Translations under genes and position numbers: made by a program
Shown here: piece after piece, positions 53,097-55,468 of the stretch
Numbering within the stretch: the stretch's first letter is position 1
How the letters are laid out: each line of letters starts with the position of its first letter
Notes under the pieces: model-generated
Database searches by the model: none
What the model was told of the DNA's origin: nothing
Seen by the model: the letters and a program-made list of their open reading frames with translations, nothing else
NCBI GenBank assembly: GCA_033819885.1
Contig: JAQYUZ010000035.1
Location: 124,001-188,000, forward strand
DNA length: 64,000 bases
Reading direction: 5' to 3'
Source of the DNA: Microbotryomycetes sp. JL201
Taxonomy: Eukaryota > Basidiomycota > Microbotryomycetes

Positions 53097-54408
53097 CTAT
53101 TCGTCAGTCTGCATCGAGTCACCTGCACCGGTCGCGGCTGGAGTATCTGTTGCCGCCGTGTTCGTCGCATCGGGCTCGTCCCGCTCTTTCGGATCCATAC
53201 TCTCGAGATACTGCTGCAACTCGTCGCCTTCTATTATCCTGAATTTTTGGAATTGGCCGGCGGGCTGGGTGCCCAGCGTTTGCGGAGTTGTCGACTGTTC
53301 TGTGTTCACTTCTTGGCGCTGATCTTGCAAACCAATGATGCCAATCGAGGTGTTGAGTGGTGTCAGCTCTTTGTCTTGCTGCAGGGTGTCGCGCAGAGCG
53401 TGCAAGCCGTGCTTGATCAGAGTCGGCAAGTCGCCTTTGGCCGGCAACACGATAGGACAGTCAGCGAAGGGAGCAGAACAGCCATTGTCCCTGGACTCAC
53501 AGTCGACAAACTCCTCGTAGTGTGCTTCAAGGTAGGTCTTGGCGCTCTGGCTCCGTGCGCCAATGGCCATAGCGTAGTACTCGAAGCAGTTGCCTGATGG
53601 CGAGAACTCGTAAAGATGGGGTCCCTTGTCCTGTTGAATATTAAACTTATGAGAATCCTCAAATATTGCTTTGATGAGATAGATCGCCGAAAGATGGAAC
53701 TAACTTACATCGTAGCCTGCGACGAGGAATCCAACTCCATACGGCCGACGACCGTAATGCTGTGTGTTGACCTGAGCCTCTGGTACGCCCGCAATGGAGT
53801 CAGAGTCAGCACAACAGAGGCTTTCTTGTTCAGTCTATTATTGTTCAGAACTTGCTGTCTGCGATCGCGTTGACGATACGGTTAACGGGCAGCGGCCTGT
53901 TGTACAGCATGCGCGAAGACATGGCCTGTGTCCTCATGAAGTTGCTGAGAGTGATGACATGAGCGATTTTGGAATCAGATTCACTGTCTGGCGGGAGCGA
54001 AGGAACGGCGGCTGCGGCTTACGACAGCACGCGTGCATCTGATGTCAAGCCCGCAATAGCAACGCCAATGTGATCGTCAATCCTGATGAGCTTCTTCTGA
54101 TACGAGGCAAGCTCGCCCGTGGAACGCTGCGCATTGTATGTGCATCGACAGCCTCGTCAGCCCATAAACCGAGTGCGGCTGTGAGCGTCGTACTCCGCAC
54201 CTTGAGCGCGAGCAGCAGGACGTGTGTCTTACTGCGTAGACCGACTGACGCCGAGCCTTGCTTGACTGCTTCGAGGGCGTACTCGACCTGCAATGACGCG
54301 TCAGACGGCTCTGTACCGACGGTCGGACCGAGATGCGCAGCTTGCCTGGTGCAGCCTGCCAGCAGGCGAAAATGTTGTGTTATCAGAATCGTAGCTGTTG
54401 CGGAACAT
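53097..54408 (-). CDS. PRE5: 20S proteasome alpha-type subunit (alpha 6, Pre5/PSMA1 type)
   Basis: Structural outer-ring subunit of the 20S proteasome, in cytosol and nucleus. Start at 54408 gives [20 protein letters not shown] followed by [20 protein letters not shown], the usual alpha-subunit N-terminus. Next: [34 protein letters not shown], then [32 protein letters not shown] and NTSIGIIG. The C-terminal extension is acidic and low in complexity ([17 protein letters not shown]). The intron after GRLHQ (54288-54345) starts with GC (CAG|GCAAGC), secured by the conserved [12 protein letters not shown] reading. About five introns. Divergent from NIP7, 120 bp apart. Confidence 0.95.
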
Positions 54409-54528
54409 TGAGGCAGTGTCAAAAAGGAAGGAAAGCGCAGAGGGGCTCGAGCGCGCCCAGTTTGGTTGCGCAGTCGTCGCCGCCCGTTTTTTGGTTCCAC
54501 CGCTCGGACCTCGTACCCGGCACCCGCT

Positions 54529-55468
54529 AGTGAGTAGGGGCGAGGCCTGTTCGGCTTCTGGTTGCTCGTTTCAGTCCTCTGACGTTGCCGCCACATGTGG
54601 CATTGACAGTGCGGCCGTTGACGGACTCGGAGACAAAGGCGCTCTTCAGCAAGCTCGCGAACTACATCGGATCGAATGTGGTGCATCTGGTCGACAACCC
54701 CGATGACGTGAGAGCTGTCAATGTTACTCTGCAGAGCAGCCACAGCTGCTGACCTTCATCGTGCGTCGCCGGTTGCGCTCGCAGCCTCATGTGTTTCGCC
54801 TGCACCGCTCGCGCGTATACTACGTACGCGAAGAGATGATCCGGCAAGCTATTTCCGTCCCGCGTGCCAGTCTCATCTCGCTCGGCATCTGCCTGGGCAA
54901 ATTCTCAAAGACTGAAAAGTTCCGGTTGCACGTGACCGCGCTTGACTTGCTTGCTCGACATGCCAAGTACAAGGTCAGTCCTGGATTGCTTGTGCCTGAG
55001 CCTTCCACGATTGAACTGGTTTTGCTGACTCGTGATTGACCCTGGCCTCGTTGCGCTCTATCTTGCCACCAATGATAACAGGTCTGGATTAAAGCAAACG
55101 GAGAGATGCCGTTTCTCTACGGAAACCACGTCGTCAAGGCACATCTTGCTAAAATCACTGAAGACACACCTGAACATCAAGGTGTTGTTGTGTTTGGCAC
55201 AAACGACATTCCGCTCGGATTCGGCGTCACGGCGCGCAGCACCGTCGATACCCGCAAGCTGGACCCCACCGCCAACATCGTTTTCAATCAAGCGTGAGCT
55301 TCGTTCGACATTCTGGGTTCCGCCGAGCACAAACCTGACCTTGATGCTTCTCGTTCCAGCGATGTCGGCGAGTATCTGCGCGATGAGGTCTGTACTGCTC
55401 CAACATGTGCACAGGACCGTTGACTGACACAAGGTTATATTTGCTTATCTCAGGATACACTGTTCTGA
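54529..55468 (+). CDS. NIP7: Ribosome biogenesis protein NIP7
   Basis: Nucleolar PUA-domain protein needed for 27S pre-rRNA processing and 60S assembly. Exons at 54529 (single base A), 54610-54707, 54785-54973, 55082-55293, 55360-55387 and 55454-55468 give exactly 180 codons, the length known for NIP7. The start codon is split: A, then an intron (54530-54609, GTGAGT...TTGACAG), then TG, giving [20 protein letters not shown]. No ATG occurs between the PRE5 start and base 54529. [50 protein letters not shown] and [20 protein letters not shown] follow. The end GEYLRDEDTLF comes from the last small exon. Confidence 0.95.

Follow-up and report, generated by a model that had tools for sequence, protein, structure and literature searches.

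The NIP7 Locus

The window, by which the whole analysed stretch of 64,000 nucleotides from Microbotryomycetes sp. JL201 is meant, contains the divergently oriented genes NIP7 and PRE5. PRE5 encodes a proteasome alpha subunit, and its start codon occupies 54406-54408 on the minus strand. Because the two start codons are divergent and separated by 120 bp, the genes may share a promoter. The parts of NIP7, with the evidence for each in brackets and a slash for the cut within the start codon, are as follows.

54409..54529, + strand: leader and first exon, upper bound (the 120 bp between the PRE5 and NIP7 start codons, plus the A at 54529)
54530..54609, + strand: intron 1, 80 nt, cutting the start codon as A/TG (GTGAGT donor, CTGAC, AG at 54608-54609)
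54610..54707, + strand: exon 2, the TG of the start codon and then the codons from R2 (spliced model and PDB alignment)
54785..54973, + strand: exon 3 (spliced model and PDB alignment)
55082..55293, + strand: exon 4, with most of the PUA domain, PF03657 (spliced model and Pfam)
55360..55387, + strand: exon 5 (spliced model and PDB alignment)
55454..55468, + strand: exon 6, including the stop codon TGA (spliced model and PDB alignment)

When joined, the six exons, the first of which contributes to the coding sequence the A at 54529 alone, amount to 543 nt, or 180 codons and the stop. The six-exon, 180-codon model proposed in the first-pass annotation is borne out by this spliced length and by an end-to-end alignment with the Nip7 of PDB entry 8esq, which spans the first Met to the last residue (1-180). 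Residues 1-180 also align with 6elz, and residues 1-179 with human-type homologues in the PDB; the source species of these entries are presumably S. pombe (8esq), S. cerevisiae (6elz) and human (the human-type homologues). In all six distinct PDB sequences that were found, the match begins at query residue 1 and at the initial Met of the NIP7 in question, which is residue 11 of the longer chain in the case of 1t5y. Pfam places pre-PUA_NIP7 at residues 1-83 and the PUA domain at 96-175. These two domains, a length of about 180 aa and an N-terminus of the form MRxLT identify the product as NIP7, a factor for assembly of the 60S ribosomal subunit, and its best match suggests a fungal protein. A six-frame search with NIP7 of the organism's own genome (17.15 Mb in 92 contigs) returned three matches, every one of them an exon of the same gene, which indicates that NIP7 is single-copy. 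In a pattern scan with exon 4, none of the 121 stretches from the genome contigs and the 12 from viral contigs encodes a relative. An Rfam scan of the whole window at gathering thresholds gave no matches.

Intron 1 and the Start Codon

The letters on which a split start codon depends were confirmed in the sequence: A at 54529, GTGAGT from 54530, an AG ending at 54609 and TG at 54610-54611. The homologues carry a Met ahead of R2; the corresponding genomic triplet is GTG, whose first G is the last base of the acceptor AG (54609). In intron 1 the motif CTGAC opens 31 nt from the 3' end, and the next AG downstream is the acceptor itself, at 54608-54609. Another AG lies earlier in the intron, at 54574, with no CTGAC ahead of it inside the intron. 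CTGAC is present in all five NIP7 introns, or in four of four when intron 1 is set aside. This branch-point-like motif also recurs upstream of acceptors in other inspected genes, and it is useful for gene modelling in this genome.

The leader likewise agrees with the first-pass annotation, according to which it holds no ATG. Past the PRE5 start, the + strand has its first ATG at 54595, which falls within intron 1 in a different frame from NIP7 and opens only 3 codons. Upstream of 54529 there is no in-frame Met across the 39 open codons of 54412-54528. At the sequence level NIP7 therefore has the features of a gene with a start-codon-disrupting intron, namely a canonical GT-AG intron within codon 1 and an ATG-free leader. 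The predicted gene model, its splice signals and the lack of another ATG in the leader are well established in the DNA itself, and they support the view that the initiator AUG of NIP7 would exist solely after splicing of intron 1. Removal of 54530-54609 would join A to TG, and the product of this joining would be the first AUG of the mRNA and the start of NIP7.

The choice of donor does not follow from the protein alone, because six GTs within 54411-54606 are preceded by A and each of them, used as donor, would yield A/TG. GTGAGT at 54530 matches the donor consensus best among the six, and the nearest alternative is GTAGGG at 54534. Use of a different A-preceded donor, most likely GTAGGG, would give an intron of 76 nt and leave the start codon split as A/TG. 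However, by the donor consensus GTAGGG is poorer than GTGAGT, and its use is very improbable. A second alternative does away with the split. If transcription began within 54530-54609, intron 1 would be unused and NIP7 could start at the GTG of 54609-54611, which is in the NIP7 frame and immediately ahead of R2. This is equally hard to credit, as intron 1 carries a complete intron grammar and the out-of-frame ATG at 54595 sits just upstream of the GTG.

The full grammar of a split start, written A/GTRAGT ... CTGAC ... first AG/TG, fits a single AGTG site, that of NIP7, out of the 434 in the window (210 on one strand and 224 on the other). It was written after NIP7 had been seen, with its CTGAC part independently backed by introns 2-5 (four of four). 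In first-order Markov sequences built from the + strand (20 simulations per pattern), the mean expectation per 64-kb strand was 0.05 for A/GTRAGT and 0.15 for the laxer A/GTNNGT.

Retention of Single Introns

The first-pass annotation went further and held that no NIP7 is made from unspliced RNA, which would make the split codon a simple on/off switch. The former statement stands insofar as the AUG requires splicing. It is slightly too strong, since an in-frame GTG remains. Any retained intron of the A/TG kind leaves GTG in the frame of the ATG because the intron ends in G. GTG is a weak near-cognate start codon, and in RNA that retains intron 1 it is preceded by the out-of-frame ATG at 54595.

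The idea of a switch fared less well. When introns 1-5 are retained singly, the ORFs from the first ATG are 3, 47, 117, 167, and 187 aa long, respectively. Retention of introns 2, 3 or 4 truncates NIP7, with 167 of the 180 residues kept in the case of intron 4, and retention of intron 5 leaves residues 1-176 in place and puts 11 residues where the last 4 had been. Only retention of intron 1 leaves zero residues of NIP7. A regulated mechanism in which controlled retention of intron 1, for instance by growth, would shut NIP7 off without a truncated protein could thus draw on the cleanest off state of the five, a 3-codon ORF as against 47-187 aa for introns 2-5. Against it, intron 1 carries the kind of splice signals that is usual in NIP7, and retaining any other single intron alters the protein as well. 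Since retention of any of the five changes NIP7, intron 1 is not alone in making the protein depend on splicing. The claim of a simple on/off switch is not supported on this evidence, and regulation of this kind is very unlikely.

A Probable Second Split Start Elsewhere in the Genome

A strict form of the pattern, A/GTGAGT..CTGAC..CAG/TG, has 24 matches in the whole genome, compared with 3 for a reversed-pattern control. Follow-up covered 23 of the 24 loci (all except L079). Two were assigned to split start codons (NIP7 itself, L071, and, probably, L081), four to internal introns and one to a match below the cut-off, and 16 are without assignment. The Pfam test took in eight loci (L061, L062, L063, L065, L066, L069, L074, and L081). 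The internal introns are those with a Pfam match above the cut-off, which spans the junction in L061, L062 and L074 and begins just past it in L066. L069 has a Pfam match below the cut-off, and L063 and L065 have none. L063 was also considered as a third split start; its other frame has an apparent likeness to ATP-citrate lyase, and on this visual judgement the locus was rejected.

The locus L081 (L081:1501-1730, or 29606-29835 of contig 89) contains an Arf-family GTPase gene with a GTGAGT...CTGAC...CAG intron at A/TG. The exon that begins at this junction is followed by a second intron with CTGAC and then by Arf-family GTPase sequence. In the translated model, Pfam Arf matches residues 9-34 (E 1.4e-5), with a further Arf match about 0.5 kb downstream, and upstream the frame stays open for 36 codons with no Met. 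Within the Arf family, the gene may be ARFRP1/Arl3-like. Based on its sequence, L081 is probably a second split start of the A/TG type. Three observations stand against this reading: the Pfam match (residues 9-34) and the PDB matches (the best from residue 7, E 0.0011) all stop short of the first Met, the A is preceded at a distance of 112 nt by an ATG in another frame, and an alternative frame is open from upstream through the GTPase motif.

Intact starts are found elsewhere. The ATG is uninterrupted in all six other genes whose first Met was recognised, a small sample that is skewed to genes without an intron at the start and was judged by eye from familiar motifs. These genes are RPL15-like L006, ubiquitin (L011 and L014), a proteasome alpha subunit (L035), PRE5 in the window and beta-tubulin-like L086. 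A histone-like gene (L024) and a possible gamma-tubulin (L083/L085), in which Met is visible and identity uncertain, were set aside. The count also excludes a proteasome alpha gene (L039/L043) and an alpha-tubulin-like gene (L082/L088), both with a first exon that precedes an intron, as well as most of the remaining loci fetched. It is very improbable that start-splitting introns in this lineage are the hallmark of a small group of growth-related genes (NIP7 and the Arf-like GTPase) whose translation would be gated jointly by splicing efficiency, with clean off states on retention of intron 1.

Probable Origin of the Split Start Codon

Start codons interrupted by an intron of phase 1 or 2 have been described, and the relevant passages of that work call such introns relatively rare, in plants especially (Nielsen and Wernersson, 2006; PMC1626468). 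The kind of intron seen in NIP7 is thus already known. NIP7 shares with that class a conserved product and a phase 1 intron within codon 1, and fungi are among the groups plotted there; the class is a side remark in those passages, which do not mention NIP7. The same paper reports that ribosomal proteins are over-represented among start codon introns of phase 0, directly after the ATG. NIP7 resembles these as well, being short and conserved with an intron at its start codon. It differs from them in being cut two bases earlier, within the ATG, so that the AUG itself would depend on splicing. The rarity reported in print (PMC1626468), together with the six intact starts out of six, leaves room for a non-neutral reason for the split in NIP7.

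A rough intron density can be taken from one gene, NIP7, whose 4 other introns, spread over about 540 coding positions, amount to about 0.7% per site; PRE5 seems similar by eye. With two sites inside the ATG, chance alone would split the start codons of the order of 1% of genes. In this intron-dense genome, the intron most likely landed at the start codon by chance.

In conclusion, the split start codon of NIP7 is very probably the result of an ordinary spliceosomal intron, of the type usual in this genome, that by chance interrupts the codon behind its A. It would belong to a known rare class, and no sign of regulated splicing was seen in its sequence. We infer both that the RNA is spliced along the NIP7 model and that the position of intron 1 is neutral. 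For annotation, the consequence is that a gene finder demanding an uninterrupted ATG would miscall the start of NIP7. The gene also illustrates neatly how splicing would assemble a start codon, and is otherwise ordinary.
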